The translations under genes and the position numbers were made by a program. The notes under the pieces were generated by a model. It saw nothing but the letters and a program-made list of their open reading frames with translations. It was not told where the DNA came from and searched no databases. Shown here in pieces: positions 28,823 through 38,011 of a stretch of DNA of 64,000 nt. Within the stretch, counting starts at the first letter, position 1, and every line of letters starts with the position of its first letter. The stretch is from contig VGVQ01000003.1 of the NCBI GenBank assembly GCA_016874005.1, positions 99,019 through 163,018 of the forward strand, read 5' to 3'. The DNA is from Gemmatimonadota bacterium (lineage in GTDB: Bacteria; Gemmatimonadota; Gemmatimonadetes; Gemmatimonadales; GWC2-71-9).

Positions 28823-30001
28823 GTGACGGCCCGGGCCAGGCTCGACCTTCCCGCCGAAGTGGTCGAGATCGCCACGACGCTCGAGGCGGCGGGGCACGAG
28901 ACGTGGTGCGTCGGCGGGGCGCTTCGGGACGCTCACTTCGGCACGGTGCCCGATGACGTCGACCTCGCCACCAGCGCCACGCCGGATCAGGTTCAGTCGC
29001 TGTTCCGGCACACCGTGCCGGTGGGAATCAAGTTCGGCACCGTCGGGGTGTTGGATCGCCACCGCCGGCTCCACGAAGTCACCACCTTTCGACACGACGT
29101 CCAAACGGATGGCCGCCACGCCGTGGTGGCGTATGGGGCCTCGCTCGAGGACGACCTGGCTCGCCGGGATTTCACCATCAACGCCATGGCGTATCACCCG
29201 CTGCGCGGCGAGTGGCGCGATCCGTTCGGAGGAGCGGCCGACCTCGAACGGCGGGTGATTCGGGCGGTCGGGAACCCCGCCGACCGGTTCCGCGAGGACT
29301 ACCTCCGGATTCTCCGGGCCATCCGTTTCGCCGCGCGGCTCGATTTCTCGATCGACCCGGCCACCTGGTCGGCCGCGATGGCCGAGGCCGGCGGGCTGGA
29401 CCGGCTCTCGGCCGAACGGGTCCGGGATGAATGGTTCCGGAGCCTCGAGACGGCCCAGTCGCTGGAGCGGATGATCCGGCTCTGGCACGACGTTGGGGCC
29501 GCCCGCCAATGGATGGCCGGTCTGGTGACCCACTCGCCGTTCCCACCGGGGCCGATCGAGCCGCGCGACCCGGTGGCGCTCACGGCGGCGCTGGTCGCCG
29601 ACCCGGTTGGCACCTTGGGCCGACTCAAGGCATCGGGGGCGGAGATCGAGCGGGTCGGACGGATCGTGGCGGGCCCGCGGATTCCCGAGAGCGGGGATGA
29701 GCGGGTGGTCCGCAGGTGGCTCGCGGCGGTCGGTCCGGCCGCCGACGACCTGATCCTGCTCGACCGGTGGCGGACGGGCCGGCCGGGGTGGGTGACGCCG
29801 ATCGTCTCGGTCATCCGATCTCGGCGAGACCCGCTGACCCGGTCGGACCTCGCGGTGAGCGGGGCCGATCTGATCGCGGCCGGGATCGGTCCGGGGCCAC
29901 ACCTCGGCCGAGTCCTGGCCGAGCTGCTCGACGCGGTGCTCGACGACCCGGGCAGCAACCGTCGCGAGGTATTGTTGGCTCGCGCGCGCCGGGTGCCGTG
30001 A
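28823..30001 (+). CDS. CCA tRNA nucleotidyltransferase / poly(A) polymerase family
   Basis: GHETWCVGGALRDAHFGTVPDDVDLATSATPDQV; DFTINAMAYHP; DRFREDYLRILRAIRFAARL. Confidence 0.93.
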   Translation: MTARARLDLPAEVVEIATTLEAAGHETWCVGGALRDAHFGTVPDDVDLATSATPDQVQSLFRHTVPVGIKFGTVGVLDRHRRLHEVTTFRHDVQTDGRHAVVAYGASLEDDLARRDFTINAMAYHPLRGEWRDPFGGAADLERRVIRAVGNPADRFREDYLRILRAIRFAARLDFSIDPATWSAAMAEAGGLDRLSAERVRDEWFRSLETAQSLERMIRLWHDVGAARQWMAGLVTHSPFPPGPIEPRDPVALTAALVADPVGTLGRLKASGAEIERVGRIVAGPRIPESGDERVVRRWLAAVGPAADDLILLDRWRTGRPGWVTPIVSVIRSRRDPLTRSDLAVSGADLIAAGIGPGPHLGRVLAELLDAVLDDPGSNRREVLLARARRVP

Positions 30002-31314
30002 CGGACGGAGGGCTGTTCGCGCCGGCGGGACCGCTCGCCGATCGGATCCGGCCGCGGTCACTCGAGGAGTTCGTCGGCCAGCGTCATCTCCTGGCTCCGG
30101 GGAAGGCGTTAGGCGACGCCATCCGCCGAGGCGACCTCACCTCGACCATCTTCTGGGGGCCGCCCGGCGTCGGGAAGACCACCCTGGCCCGACTGGTCGC
30201 CCAGCACACCGGCCGCGAGTTCGTGGGGTTCAGCGCGGTGACCGAGGGCGTGCCCAGGGTCCGCGAGATCATCAAGGAAGCGGAAGCCCGCCTCGTCCTC
30301 GGGCGGGGCACCATTCTCTTCTGCGATGAGATCCACCGATTCAACCGGGCCCAGCAGGATGCGTTCCTGCCGCACGTCGAGCGGGGCACCATCACCCTGA
30401 TCGGCGCCACGACGGAGAACCCCAGCTTCAGCCTCAATGGGGCACTGTTGTCGCGGGCCAGGGTCTTCGTGCTCGAGTCGCTAGCGGCGGCGGATCTGAT
30501 GGCCTTGCTCCGGCGGGCGTTGTCCGACGACGATCGCGGGCTCGGGGCCCAGGGTGTCACGGCCGACGACGCGGCGCTCGCCGCGATCGCGGTTCAAGCG
30601 GACGGAGATGCCCGGCTCGCCTTGACCACTCTCGAGGCGGCGGCACTTCACGTCGGACTGCGCGGTCATCTGACCGAGGCGGTGTTGAGCGAGGTGCTGG
30701 CGCGACGGGTCCCCCGGTACGACGCGACGGGGGAGGAGCATTACAACCTGCTCTCGGCGTATCACAAGGCACTCCGGGGGAGCGACCCTGACGGGGCCTT
30801 GTATTGGGCCGCCCGGATGATCGAGGGCGGGGAAGATCCCCGCACCCTGTTCCGGCGGGCGATCGCGATGGCGGCCGAGGATATCGGCTTGGCCGATCCC
30901 AACGCCTTGCTCATGGCGGTGGCGGCGCAGTCCGCCTACCAGGTGCTCGGGCCGCCGGAGGGGTATCTACCACTGGCCGAAATGACCATCTACCTCGCGA
31001 CCGCGCCGAAATCCAATAGCACGGTCGTGGCACTCGGGGCGGCGTTCGACGCGGCCCGGACGACCCCGGCAGAACCGGTGCCCCTGCACCTTCGAAACGC
31101 CCCGACGAGCCTGATGAAGGACCTGGGATACGGCACGGGGTACCGATATGCTCACGATGGGCCGGGTCATTACCTTCCCCAGGACTACCTTCCAGCCGCG
31201 CTCAAGGGGACTGCTTTCTACTCGCCGGGGACCATCGGCTTCGAGACGAAGGTGGCGGAGCGGCTCCGGTGGTGGCGGGAACGGTCCAGGGACTCGGAAC
31301 CCAAGGGAGACTGA
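29998..31314 (+). CDS. rarA: Replication-associated recombination protein A (RarA/MgsA AAA ATPase)
   Basis: GTG start; LADRIRPRSLEEFVGQRHLL; FWGPPGVGKTTLAR; FCDEIHRFNRAQQDAFLP. Confidence 0.95.
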   Translation: MTDGGLFAPAGPLADRIRPRSLEEFVGQRHLLAPGKALGDAIRRGDLTSTIFWGPPGVGKTTLARLVAQHTGREFVGFSAVTEGVPRVREIIKEAEARLVLGRGTILFCDEIHRFNRAQQDAFLPHVERGTITLIGATTENPSFSLNGALLSRARVFVLESLAAADLMALLRRALSDDDRGLGAQGVTADDAALAAIAVQADGDARLALTTLEAAALHVGLRGHLTEAVLSEVLARRVPRYDATGEEHYNLLSAYHKALRGSDPDGALYWAARMIEGGEDPRTLFRRAIAMAAEDIGLADPNALLMAVAAQSAYQVLGPPEGYLPLAEMTIYLATAPKSNSTVVALGAAFDAARTTPAEPVPLHLRNAPTSLMKDLGYGTGYRYAHDGPGHYLPQDYLPAALKGTAFYSPGTIGFETKVAERLRWWRERSRDSEPKGD

Positions 31315-31328
31315 CAATTTCAAGGACC

Positions 31329-32606
31329 ATGATCGACGTGGCGCCGCCGGTCGAACGAGCCGTGCTGGTCGGGGCGCCGCGGAAGGGCAGTGACGACGCA
31401 GCGCATCTGACAGAGCACCTCGACGAGTTGGCTCGATTGGTGGACACGGCTGGGGCGCTCGTCGTCGGCCGGTTGTCGCAGCAGGTCGCGACCCCGAATC
31501 CCGCAACCCTGATCGGAGAAGGAAAGGTCGTCGAGCTCGAGGCGTTGATCGCCGAGCTCGGGGCGACCCTGGTGATCTTCGACGAGGAACTGGCCCCGGT
31601 GCAGGGCGCCAACCTCGAAAAGCAGCTCGGGGTTCGGGTCATGGATCGGGCGGAAGTCATTCTCGACATCTTCTCCACTCGGGCCCGGACCGCCGAGGCC
31701 AAGCTGCAGGTGGAGCTGGCGCAGCTCGAGTATCTGTTGCCGCGGTTGGCCCGAATGTGGACGCACTTGTCCCGAATCCGGGGCGGTATCGGTCTGCGAG
31801 GGCCCGGCGAAACCCAGCTCGAGACCGACCGCCGGATGATCCGCAAGAAGATCCAGCACCACCGGGCCAAGCTCCGCGACGTGGCGCGGCATCGAGAAGT
31901 GCTGCGATCGGGCCGCCAGGCGATGCTCTGCGCCGCGCTGGTTGGCTACACCAACGCTGGCAAATCGAGCATTCTCCGAGGGCTGACGGGCGAGCGAGAG
32001 ATCGTCGTGGAGGACCGGCTTTTCGCGACGCTGGATACGCTGACCCGGGAGGTCGATCTCGGCGGCGGGCAGAAAGCGCGGGTTACCGATACGGTGGGCT
32101 TCATCCGGAAACTTCCCCATCACTTGGTGGCCAGCTTCCGGGCGACCCTCGAAGAAGCGCGCGGCGCCGATGTGCTCCTTCACGTGGTCGACGCGAGCCA
32201 TCTGGAATGGGAGGAGCACATTCGGGTCGTCGACCAAGTCCTGGCCGAGCTCGAGCTGTCGGACAAAGCAGTGATCATGGTGTTCAACAAGGCGGATCGG
32301 CTGGCGGATCCGGCCGGATTCGCCATCCGGGCGACCTCGCTGTTTGGCGACGCGGTCGTGGTGAGCGCCGTCGCGGCCGAGGGGCTTACCGCTCTGAAGG
32401 CGCTCCTCGCGGCGAAGAGCCGGGCCCTCCGGCCGCCGGTGCGGGTCGTGGTGCCTGCGACCGATGGGAAGCGGATTGCCGAGGTGTATCGGTCTGGGGA
32501 GGTGGTTTCGCGGGAGGACACCCCGGAAGGCGTAGCGTTTCTGGTGAGGCTGGAGGACTGGAAGGCCAAGCGGTTGGGGGAAGCGGCCAGGGGAACCACC
32601 GAGTGA
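31329..32606 (+). CDS. hflX: GTPase HflX
   Basis: SRIRGGIGLRGPGETQLETDRR; ALVGYTNAGKSSILRGLTG; DTVGFIRKLPHHLVASFRATLEE. Confidence 0.96.
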   Translation: MIDVAPPVERAVLVGAPRKGSDDAAHLTEHLDELARLVDTAGALVVGRLSQQVATPNPATLIGEGKVVELEALIAELGATLVIFDEELAPVQGANLEKQLGVRVMDRAEVILDIFSTRARTAEAKLQVELAQLEYLLPRLARMWTHLSRIRGGIGLRGPGETQLETDRRMIRKKIQHHRAKLRDVARHREVLRSGRQAMLCAALVGYTNAGKSSILRGLTGEREIVVEDRLFATLDTLTREVDLGGGQKARVTDTVGFIRKLPHHLVASFRATLEEARGADVLLHVVDASHLEWEEHIRVVDQVLAELELSDKAVIMVFNKADRLADPAGFAIRATSLFGDAVVVSAVAAEGLTALKALLAAKSRALRPPVRVVVPATDGKRIAEVYRSGEVVSREDTPEGVAFLVRLEDWKAKRLGEAARGTTE

Positions 32607-32613
32607 CCGCCTG

Positions 32614-34065
32614 ATGCTAGTCTCGAACGCCTTTCGCTACAGCCTGGCACGCGGTCTTCCTGGGTTGGCCAATTTCTTCGCTTTGGCGCTCTTCACCCGG
32701 CTGCTCGGGCCGACCGGGTATGGCTCGTATGCGTTGGTGATCGCGACGGTTGGGTTAGCCTACGCGGTATTGTTCCAGTGGCTCAGCCTGGCGACGCTGC
32801 GATTCGCGCAGTCGCAGTTGGCCGATCGGGCGACCGTGCTCGTGTCGGTCCGGCGGTGGTATTGGCGGATCGCGGCAGTGGTGGTGGTGCTGGTCGCCGG
32901 GGTCGCGATCGTCGGGGTTCCCGACTTGCCGCGTCCGACGATCGTGCTGGCGGGGGTGCTGCTGCTGGCGCACGCCTGGGTCGAGATCAACCTGATGTTG
33001 GCGAGCGCCGATCGGCGCCCGGGGCGCTACGGTTGGCTCGCGGGGGTCAAGGCGGGTGGGGTGCTGCTGTTCGGCGCGATCGGGGCGTGGAGTGGTTACG
33101 GGTTTGGCGGAGTCGTGGCGGGGGCCTGCGTCGGGTTGGTATTGCCGGCGATTTGGGCGGCGGCGCGCGACTGGCGGGGCCTCGCGGCTGGAGGGGTAGC
33201 GGCGACCGAGGTGGCGCTAGGTCGATACGGGGCCCCTCTGGCGGTGACCTACCTGCTCGATTTCATCATCAGCACATCCGACCGGTTGCTGATCGGGGCG
33301 ATGCTGGGGGCCGCCGCCGCGGGGACCTACGCGGCGGCCTACGATTTGACCCAGCAGTCGATGTGGACGCTGATGATGATCGTCAACCTGTCGGCGTATC
33401 CCTTAATGATGACCGCGGTAGAGCGAAGCGATGCGGTGGCGTTAGGGGCGCTGGGCCGCCGCCACATCGGTCTCCTGCTCGGAATCGGCCTGCCCGTCGC
33501 GGCTGGGCTGGCGGTGCTGGCGCCAGGGATCAGCACCGCGGCCTTCGGCTCGGCTTTCGCTCGCGAGGCAGCCACGGTGCTTCCGATCGTCGCCGTCGCG
33601 ATTCTCCTCGGTGGCCTCAAATCCTATTACTTCGACTTAGCGTTCCAGGCTGGACGATCGACAAAGGGCCAGCTCATTGTCGCGGCCGTGGCCGGGGTGG
33701 CCAACCTGGTGCTCAATATCCTCTGGATTCCGCGGTTCGGGCCGACCGGCGCGGCCGCCGCGACCCTGGCCGCGTACGGCCTCGGGTTGGGCTTGAGCGT
33801 CGTGGCCGGGCGGCGAGTCGTTCCGTTGCCGTTCGGCGGCGCGGACGCCGGCAAACTCCTGTTGGCCGCCACCGCGATGCTGCTGGTGCTCTATCCCTTC
33901 CGGGCGGGTGATGGGTTGCCAGCGCTCGCCGCCAAGATCGTCGTGGGCGCGGCCGTCTACGCCACGATTTGTTGGTTGACCAACCCCGCGGGTGTTCGAG
34001 ATGGGATCCGAGCCTGGTGGCATTCGCGAGCCGCGGGGCCGCCGGCCACCGGGTGGTCGTCGTAG
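32614..34065 (+). CDS. Polysaccharide flippase (Wzx/MATE-like, multi-TM)
   Basis: ~12 hydrophobic helices; FFALALFTRLLGPTGYGSYALVIATVGL; LNILWIPRFGPTGAAAATLAAYG. Confidence 0.85.
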   Translation: MLVSNAFRYSLARGLPGLANFFALALFTRLLGPTGYGSYALVIATVGLAYAVLFQWLSLATLRFAQSQLADRATVLVSVRRWYWRIAAVVVVLVAGVAIVGVPDLPRPTIVLAGVLLLAHAWVEINLMLASADRRPGRYGWLAGVKAGGVLLFGAIGAWSGYGFGGVVAGACVGLVLPAIWAAARDWRGLAAGGVAATEVALGRYGAPLAVTYLLDFIISTSDRLLIGAMLGAAAAGTYAAAYDLTQQSMWTLMMIVNLSAYPLMMTAVERSDAVALGALGRRHIGLLLGIGLPVAAGLAVLAPGISTAAFGSAFAREAATVLPIVAVAILLGGLKSYYFDLAFQAGRSTKGQLIVAAVAGVANLVLNILWIPRFGPTGAAAATLAAYGLGLGLSVVAGRRVVPLPFGGADAGKLLLAATAMLLVLYPFRAGDGLPALAAKIVVGAAVYATICWLTNPAGVRDGIRAWWHSRAAGPPATGWSS

Positions 34066-34081
34066 TCAGGGCGGTCGAGCC

Positions 34082-34877
34082 ATGTGCGGAATAGCCGGGT
34101 TCTTCGGCCCTCCATTCGACTCGGCCGAAGGCGACCGGATCGTCTCCCGGATGAGTACCGCACTTCGGCACCGGGGCCCGGACGACGCCGGAACCTGGAT
34201 CGACGGATCGGCCGGGATCGCGCTGGGCCATCGCCGGCTGGCGGTCCTCGATACTTCGGACCGGGGCCGCCAACCGATGGTGTCACCGAGCGGCCGGTTC
34301 GTCATCACGTACAACGGTGAGATCTACAATTTCGTAGCCTTGCGGCGCGAGGAGGAGCGCCGCGGCACCAGGTTCCGGGGCACTTCGGACACCGAGGTAC
34401 TCGTTGCACTGATCGATCGCCTGGGTGTACGAGAAGCGACCTGTCAGCTGGCAGGGATGTTTGCGTTCGCGGTCTGGGACCGTCGAGAACGATCCGTTTA
34501 CCTAGTTCGAGATCGGATCGGCGAGAAGCCGCTCTACTACGGGGCGGTGGCAGGCACATGGCTGTTTGGCTCGGAACTCAAGAGCCTGGCGTGTCACCCG
34601 GTCTGGACGGGTCGGATCGATCCGGTCGCCGTCAGCCTTTACCTTCGCTACAACTACGTCCCGACGCCTCACTCGATCTTCGAGGGAATTCGGAAGGTCG
34701 ACCCCGGCACGATCGTCACGGTGTCGGAGGGTGGGCGGTTCGCGAGGGAGACGTACTGGGACCTTCAGGCAGCGGTGGCCGATGGACTGAGCAATCCGGT
34801 GGCTGATGGCACCGATGGAATCTCCCTTCTCGAGGAACGGCTGTTGGCAACGATCGGCGAAAGATGCTGGCGGATGT
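34082..34877 (+). pseudogene. asnB: Asparagine synthetase (glutamine-hydrolysing), C-terminal synthetase domain missing
   Basis: MCGIAGFFGP, RGPDDAGTW, NGEIYNF, LVRDRIGEKPLYYG; homology runs through RMLADV only with a frame change near 34862 and stops at ~34877. Confidence 0.85.
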
Positions 34878-35558
34878 GCGCCGCACCCCGCTATAGACCC
34901 GGCCCAGGCGCGGATACAGCGCGGTTTCCAACTGCCCGAGGGTGAGACTGCCGACGTAGACCTGGCCTACTTGGGGGATGACGACGAACCCTTCTCGGGT
35001 CACTTCCAGGGTGTGGGCCACCTCGACATCCCCAGTGAGAATGAGGACCAGGACATCACCGGGCCCGAGGCGATAGGACGGGTCGACCGGACCAGTCGTC
35101 GGCGGCTGGAACTGGGTGCTAACCCGCCGGAACACATCGAGACCGAAAACCCGGAGTCGTTTCGCGCCGGTATCCGGTTGGGGAAGGTCGCGTCGGAGCA
35201 GGCCCGGCTCGCCGGGAACGCTATCCGTCGCCAGCGGGTCGAATTCGCCCACGGTGGCCAAACCCAGGGCCCGGACGGCCTCGAGCACGCGGCTGACCGG
35301 CTCAGCACCCTCGATCCCCGCTCCATCGGCCGTCAGATAGGCGTCGAGCAAATTCCCGGCATAGCCCGAGGCGATCAGGCGACTCCTGATCTGCTCGGCG
35401 GAGAGGCCCGAGGTGGCGATTCGCTGGCGCAACTGGGCGGTGAGATCCGGCTGGGTTTGGAGCAGCGCCCTGACTTGATCGTTGCCCGGCCGCTGAGCCG
35501 GGGCCACGGTCGCCAGGGTGGCGGTCAGGAGAACCGCCGTGAGCAGGATGGCTCGCAT
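34878..35558 (-). pseudogene. Polysaccharide biosynthesis/export protein (Wza-like), C-terminal part missing
   Basis: Signal peptide MRAILLTAVLLTATLATVAPAQ; YRLGPGDVLVLILTGDVEVAHTLEVTREGFVVIPQVGQVYVGSLTLGQLETALYPRLGRVYSGVRR then non-homologous antisense asnB. Confidence 0.8.
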
Positions 35559-36659
35559 CTAGACTCCTTTGCCCTCCGGGGCTCCGGCCGCCACGAACGC
35601 GACCGTCGCCCGCCAGAAATCGAGTGTCGCCGCGGCGACGGCGCTGGGAACGAACCGAGTGAGGACCCGGTCGCGGGCCCGGGCACCTAACGCTCGACAC
35701 GAGGCTGGATCGGCCACCCACCCTTGAATGGTGGCCGCCATCGCCTCGGTGTCGTCCGCGATCACCCCCGCCTCGCCAACGAGGTCCGGCAGGCAGCCGG
35801 CTCTGGTGACGAGCGGCGTGACGCCGTGACCCATCGCGTCGAGTACGGTCGGTGAATGATACTCAACCCAATGGGCGGTATCCCGCGAAGGCGCCACCAG
35901 ACAGTCGATTTCGCGCCAGAGCGCCTCCGTCGTGTCCCGCCGAATTCCACCGCGCCACTCGACCCGGGACGCCAGTCCGCGCTGCTGGATCTCCCGCTCG
36001 AGGAGCTCCTGTTCCGGTCCCGTGCCCACCACGATCAACCGCCAGCGGCCGAAGGTTCGACCCAGGGCCGCGATGAGGTCGAGGGCGCCGCGTTCCGGAA
36101 CCAATCGACCGACGAACCCCACCGTCAGATCCGGGCCGCGCCCTTCGCTCGCGAGCGGCGGCGGCACCGGCACCCCGGCGAGCGGGATGACCGCCGCGAT
36201 GGCGCGCGGGGCGACCGATCGCAGCTGTCCCATGGTCACCGTGCTCTCGCCGGCCACGCCGGCGGCGTATTCGAGGGTCGCAGTCTGCCGGCGCCGACTG
36301 AGCCACCCCATTTCGCGGTCGACGGGCTGACGGGCAAAGAGAACGTAGGGGATTCCAGCCGCCCGCGCCGCGGCCGCCGCACTGGCGGCCAGGCGACTCT
36401 CCGGATCCAACTCGAGGTGGACGAGATCGGGGCGCTCCGTCGTGATGAGCTGACGAAGGGCCTTGGCGGTGAGGGACACGGCGGTTCGCTCTGGGTCAGT
36501 CGTCTCGGTGATCGCGAGTCCGCTGACTCGTTGCCCCCGGCCTTCGGGGTCGGCGCCATCGGTGGCGACAACCAAATCCGCGCCCAGGGCGGCGATCGCC
36601 CGGTATTTCTCCCACATCGCCGGAACTCTGATGTACTTGGAGAGGACGAGGATCCGCAC
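35559..36659 (-). CDS. Glycosyltransferase family 1/4 (GT-B fold)
   Basis: VGFVGRLVPERGALDLIAALGRTFGRWRLIVVGTGPEQELLE; VLDAMGHGVTPLVT. Confidence 0.88.
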   Translation of the reverse strand: MRILVLSKYIRVPAMWEKYRAIAALGADLVVATDGADPEGRGQRVSGLAITETTDPERTAVSLTAKALRQLITTERPDLVHLELDPESRLAASAAAAARAAGIPYVLFARQPVDREMGWLSRRRQTATLEYAAGVAGESTVTMGQLRSVAPRAIAAVIPLAGVPVPPPLASEGRGPDLTVGFVGRLVPERGALDLIAALGRTFGRWRLIVVGTGPEQELLEREIQQRGLASRVEWRGGIRRDTTEALWREIDCLVAPSRDTAHWVEYHSPTVLDAMGHGVTPLVTRAGCLPDLVGEAGVIADDTEAMAATIQGWVADPASCRALGARARDRVLTRFVPSAVAAATLDFWRATVAFVAAGAPEGKGV

Positions 36660-36751
36660 GGTCCGGTATTATGGCCGGTGTCAACCCGACAGCCAAGGTC
36701 CCGCCCGCCCGGTGCATCGCGAGGCGGAGCGGCCTTATCTTGCGTGGCGAC

Positions 36752-36825
36752 GGGCCCTTAGCTCAGGCGGTTAGAGCAGCGGACTCATAATCCGTAGGTC
36801 CTGGGTTCGAATCCCAGAGGGCCCA
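36752..36825 (+). tRNA. tRNA with CAU anticodon; probably tRNA-Ile2 (k2CAU), elongator tRNA-Met possible
   Basis: Acceptor GGGCCCT/AGGGCCC, anticodon loop CTCATAA, T-loop GGTTCGAATCC; no encoded CCA. Confidence 0.9.
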
Positions 36826-37057: not shown

Positions 37058-37159
37058 ATAGAGAGGGTGTGCCTGAACTGGCCGGAGCGGAGGATGCAAC
37101 CTTCGGCACAGGGAAAGCAGACGTGCGAGATCAACGCGGCCAATCATTTGGGGGGGGAG

Positions 37160-37801
37160 ATGAAGTTCTCGAGACTGTCGGCAGTACTCGCGGCGGCGCT
37201 GGTCCCGGCAACACTGGCGGCTCAACCGGTCCAAGTCGATATCAATACGACTTATTCGCTGGCCGGTGGATTCTATCGGTACGCCTCCTCAGTAGGGTGG
37301 TATTTCACACCGTCTTCGACGTTTTTTCTGACGGCGATTCAGACCCGATTCAATCCTGCTGCAGGTCCTAACGTCGACCGCAGCGTATCGGTCGAGCTCT
37401 GGAACGATCGCCCCGCGGTTGGTGGATCGATCCTGGCTAGCGGGAGCTTCCAGTCGAATTCGGCTTTGGGCGTATTCGGCGGCGCAGGGTTCGCACCGGT
37501 TCTACTGCAAGCTGGAATCCAGTATTTCATAGGATTTAGGAACGTGCAGGGGCTTGGTTACAACTACACTCGGGATCCAGGCGCGCAAAGCTTGGGGCCG
37601 CAGTACTATTCGCTTGGGCCGATTTTCACCGACGATAACTACGGTTCGGGTGGGGTCAGTGGTCCGGAGCAAGGGAGCCCGAACCTCATCTTGACGGGAT
37701 ACGACGTCTCGACCGTACCCGAGCCGATGACCATGGTGCTTCTGGCCACGGGTCTCGCGGCCATGGGCGGGGTCGGGCTGATCAAACGCCGCCGGCAGTA
37801 G
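37160..37801 (+). CDS. Secreted PEP-CTERM sorting domain protein
   Basis: Signal peptide MKFSRLSAVLAAALVPATLAAQ; C-terminus VPEPMTMVLLATGLAAMGGVGLIKRRRQ. Confidence 0.88.
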   Translation: MKFSRLSAVLAAALVPATLAAQPVQVDINTTYSLAGGFYRYASSVGWYFTPSSTFFLTAIQTRFNPAAGPNVDRSVSVELWNDRPAVGGSILASGSFQSNSALGVFGGAGFAPVLLQAGIQYFIGFRNVQGLGYNYTRDPGAQSLGPQYYSLGPIFTDDNYGSGGVSGPEQGSPNLILTGYDVSTVPEPMTMVLLATGLAAMGGVGLIKRRRQ

Positions 37802-37918: not shown

Positions 37919-37992
37919 GGGCGGTTAGCTCAGCTGGTTAGAGCGCTGGTCTCACATACCAGAGGTCGGGGGTTCGATCCCCTCACCGCCCA
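37919..37992 (+). tRNA. tRNA-Val (CAC)
   Basis: Acceptor GGGCGGT/ACCGCCC, anticodon stem CTGGT/ACCAG with loop CTCACAT, T-loop GGTTCGATCCC. Confidence 0.93.
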
Positions 37993-38011
37993 CTCGCGAT
38001 CCCGATCCCGC

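Follow-up and report, generated by a model that had tools for sequence, protein, structure and literature searches.

The window analysed here is a 64,000-nucleotide stretch of the genome of an uncultured Gemmatimonadota bacterium, in which two cut exopolysaccharide genes meet tail to tail at position 34878, namely an asnB-like gene on the plus strand and a gene for a Wza-like exporter on the minus strand. On the left, the pair is preceded by a rarA-like AAA ATPase gene (29998..31314, +), a conserved flank with a 76–81% identical protein beside hflX in all five same-genus genomes, and by an hflX-like GTPase gene (31269..32606, +), the conserved left anchor of the island, with 73–81% identity in the same five genomes. 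The first island gene encodes an intact Wzx-type flippase (32614..34065, +), which matched PF01943 and PF13440 above their cut-offs and the NCBIfam model HfsF below its cut-off. On the right, directly upstream of the wza-like gene and on the same strand, an intact GT4 glycosyltransferase gene (35559..36659, −; PF13692, PF00534) serves as the right anchor, with 49–51% identity in G001, G003 and G004. It is followed by tRNA-Met (CAT; 36752..36825, +), a conserved flank adjoining the GT4 gene in G001, G003, G004 and G007, and by tRNA-Val (CAC; 37919..37993, +), a right flank common to the window and G004.

The two gene remnants and their junction

The plus-strand remnant (34082..34878) is the 5′ part of an asnB-like glutamine amidotransferase/asparagine synthase gene. 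Its product starts with MCGIAGF and carries a complete GATase_6/7 domain by profile match, a class II glutaminase domain that starts at Cys2 as in TIGR01536-type asparagine synthases. The C-terminal ATP-binding synthetase domain with its SGGxDS loop (PF00733) gave no match in this ORF, and TIGR01536 was matched solely over positions 1–225 of 517; what stands here is a gene remnant only, cut just upstream of the PP-loop (SGGxDS). Homology reaches ...MLADV, whose final codon GTG occupies 34876–34878 in a frame different from that of the remainder, one base being absent at about 34859–34863, beside a run of A and some 14 bp short of the join. In this region homologues read ...M(V/L)ADVPLGAFLSGG, with an identical MLADV in L036, and carry PLGAFLSGG, the beginning of the ATP-binding loop, after ADV. 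The asnB genes of relatives are intact, at about 630–700 aa.

The minus-strand remnant (34878..35558) is the 5′ part of a wza-like export gene that has lost all SLBB domains. Poly_export (PF02563), the family expected of a Wza-type exporter, was matched over positions 2–66 of 77, and intact wza homologues are likewise matched only to 66; SLBB domains and the C-terminal part, which such an exporter should also have, are both missing from the ORF. Homology reaches ...RVYSGVRR, with the last codon at 34880–34878, while homologues extend hundreds of residues further. Nearly all strong matches in relatives stop at query residue 225–228, and the open frames of the same relatives run beyond the end of the match, mostly to 780–1060 aa. 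The nearest named relatives of the fragment are Gemmatimonadota MAGs, and a DNA alignment to L119, the closest public relative (70% over 240 bp), stops exactly at 34878.

Protein alignments, the DNA alignment and motif comparison thus place the junction (34878..34879, no strand assigned) at 34878 ± 1, where the two homologies share one base at most and nothing is inserted. Downstream of the join, the plus-strand ORF continues into the antisense of the wza-like gene until a chance stop at 34945, and the minus-strand ORF runs into the antisense of the asnB-like gene until a chance stop at 34716. Apart from the one-base loss, both remnant frames are open. No long repeat, and none of assembler-crossover length, was found around the join, nor was a promoter or terminator found at it. 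The preliminary description of this DNA had read the locus as two polysaccharide genes truncated tail to tail between a flippase and a glycosyltransferase, each losing its C-terminal domains and running into the antisense of the other, with a frame change at about 34862 in asnB; domain matches and homologue alignments bear this out. Its breakpoint of about 34877 lies within one base of the position found here.

The island site in related genomes

Two relatives are compared first, G004 from the same genus and G018 from the same family only. In G004, hflX and the GT4 gene lie about 1.1 kb apart and the island is absent (an empty site, L077); its right flank (tRNA-Met, tRNA-Val, a kinase gene) matches that of the window, and rarA–hflX stands on the left. 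G018 has a full island. Next to hflX it opens with sugar-nucleotide genes, then a flippase, a GT4 gene, a whole asnB and a gene for a GNVR-type chain-length protein. After these come a CapD/WbpM-type dehydratase, Bac_transf, a DegT aminotransferase, a GT2 gene and a methyltransferase, and then wza and a GT4 gene on the opposite strand, so that asnB and wza are convergent already. Between the counterparts of the window's two breakpoints G018 has about 9.9 kb (computed from coordinates), an interval that contains the C-termini of both asnB and wza. Order and orientation in the window are therefore those left by a simple interior deletion, as judged from the island genes of G018 and the flanks of G004. 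Because of these G004 flanks and the collinearity with G018, both sides of the junction come from the same place in the chromosome and are correctly ordered and oriented.

Other genomes add to this picture. About 20 kb lies between hflX and wza in G009, and hflX and wza matches occur on one contig in a number of relatives. In the same-genus genome G003, one contig carries asnB close to hflX, and another carries wza together with the GT4 gene. Contigs end within the island or a short way past hflX in four of the five same-genus genomes (G001, G002, G003 and G005; L082–L085, L087, L089), so assembly of the island seems to be poor across the genus.

As an observation in its own right, the interval from hflX to GT4–tRNA-Met (31269–36825 in the window) is a recurrent exopolysaccharide island site in relatives. 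It is empty in G004 (L077), holds 20–25 kb in G009 and G018 (L078–L081), and has mixed content elsewhere.

Search for the lost halves in the assembly

The preliminary description had asked whether the missing C-termini lie elsewhere in the assembly. A search by protein family of its 3.88 Mb (49 contigs, 97% complete), which was also how the contig ends were covered, found neither a synthetase domain (Asn_synthase) fitting the truncated asnB nor an exporter-type SLBB protein, SLBB matches being confined to NuoF-like proteins; both halves are absent. The PF00733 matches were considered and set aside. Those on C16 and C1 were read as QueC and NAD synthetase, respectively, and that on C11 belongs to a second, complete asparagine-synthase-like protein (L003, G000:C11:57435-58544; open frame 753 aa), which does not supply the missing half of the truncated asnB.

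The same search found no second Poly_export protein, and neither Wzz nor Bac_transf. The absence of Bac_transf and Wzz was given little weight as proof of pathway loss, as four of the other five genomes in the genus also lack Bac_transf, including G003 with its intact wza. The genome encodes a Ku homologue (L180, G000:C15:61203-61700), and non-homologous end joining is therefore possible in this organism.

Origin and meaning of the junction

We favour a genuine, non-homologous interior deletion of the exopolysaccharide island, to which we assign a probability of roughly 0.6. According to this reading, a Wzx/Wza-type exopolysaccharide island would have been located between hflX and the GT4–tRNA-Met block, and its interior would have been lost when a point within asnB was joined to an unrelated one within wza, either in the organism at large or in some of its population. 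The asnB synthetase domain and most of the wza exporter would have been removed, together, probably, with the GNVR/Wzz-type chain-length protein, the CapD/WbpM-type dehydratase and other genes, judging by G018. The deleted length would be roughly 10 kb, a proxy estimate given that G018 belongs only to the same family. DNA with this join would then have existed in cells, and end joining, for which Ku is encoded, probably made it. As the lost domains suggest, this Wza would no longer serve the organism for polymer export, and the flippase and the asnB fragment would survive as leftovers. The preliminary description had suggested a deletion in an exopolysaccharide locus, which is supported by the intact, collinear island of G018 and by an assembly that contains neither of the missing halves.

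The most serious alternative, less probable but deserving real weight, is an artefact within the locus, in which the true island is intact and strain-variable, its interior was skipped by the assembler or by a chimeric read, and the remainder was left unbinned. MAGs often lack genomic islands and horizontally transferred sequences because of misassembly and binning errors, as stated in PMC9723686 (citing Maguire et al. 2020), and a near-complete draft without its variable island resembles the present case. Unlike in such losses, the window contig does not end at the gap but is continuous through it; it goes on for tens of kb on both sides with its genes open. The contig breaks in or just before the island in four same-genus genomes also speak for an artefact, and the one-base loss of frame 14 bp short of the join may point to weak support for the sequence there, which counts against a deletion. 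The otherwise open remnant frames are as compatible with an artefact as with a recent event. On the other hand, a repeat-driven assembler error is expected to leave sequence of k-mer length common to both sides, and the lack of such a repeat at the join therefore counts for a real deletion over an error of this kind; nor does the bin contain any of the missing pieces.

The wrong join of contigs raised in the preliminary description keeps its standing only in this form, as a false join within the locus. Two unrelated contigs could explain why both genes end at one point without a natural stop, but rarA–hflX occurs together with GT4, tRNA-Met, tRNA-Val and the kinase in G004, and the flippase, asnB, wza and GT4 genes follow the order and orientation of G018, which makes such a join very improbable. 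An inversion of the asnB–wza segment, also proposed earlier, is still harder to credit. Tail-to-tail cut genes would form one end of an inversion if both had once been on the same strand; their convergence in G018 makes this step unnecessary, and the protein-family searches found no reciprocal head-to-head junction or C-terminal halves elsewhere in the genome. That the products are functional short forms, a stand-alone amidotransferase and a short exporter with N-terminal frames open over 227–265 codons, is the least credible reading, as each ORF terminates in the antisense of the other gene, the PP-loop and all SLBB domains are lost, and in relatives the open frames are short only close to the end of a contig.

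For a surface-polysaccharide island to lose its interior is an ordinary event of a known kind. As in deletions of Wzx/Wzy-dependent exopolysaccharide or capsule clusters, flippase, glycosyltransferase, amidotransferase and Wza exporter genes lie in a variable island flanked by conserved genes, and interior loss leaves the edge genes truncated; unlike those deletions, the present case is known from the assembly of one uncultured genome alone. The wider point lies only in the recurrence of hflX-linked islands in this group, of which a literature search found no description. A tentative and rather doubtful proposal is that Gemmatimonadota conserve the hflX/GT4–tRNA-Met interval as a site at which exopolysaccharide islands are exchanged, with repeated end-joined losses in different lineages, the window genome being freshly deleted and export-negative.

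If the deletion is real, the junction captures an uncultured lineage that has lost surface-polymer export but whose remnants have not yet decayed, and it points to a place where polysaccharide islands recur. Should the junction be an artefact, near-complete drafts may silently cross a missing island without a contig break, and claims about gene content at the hflX/GT4 site are untrustworthy.

A minor observation concerns the right flank, where a 217-aa protein with a terminal PEP-CTERM-like sorting signal (VPEPMTMVLLATGLAAMGGVGLIKRRR) is encoded at 37148–37801, between tRNA-Met and tRNA-Val.
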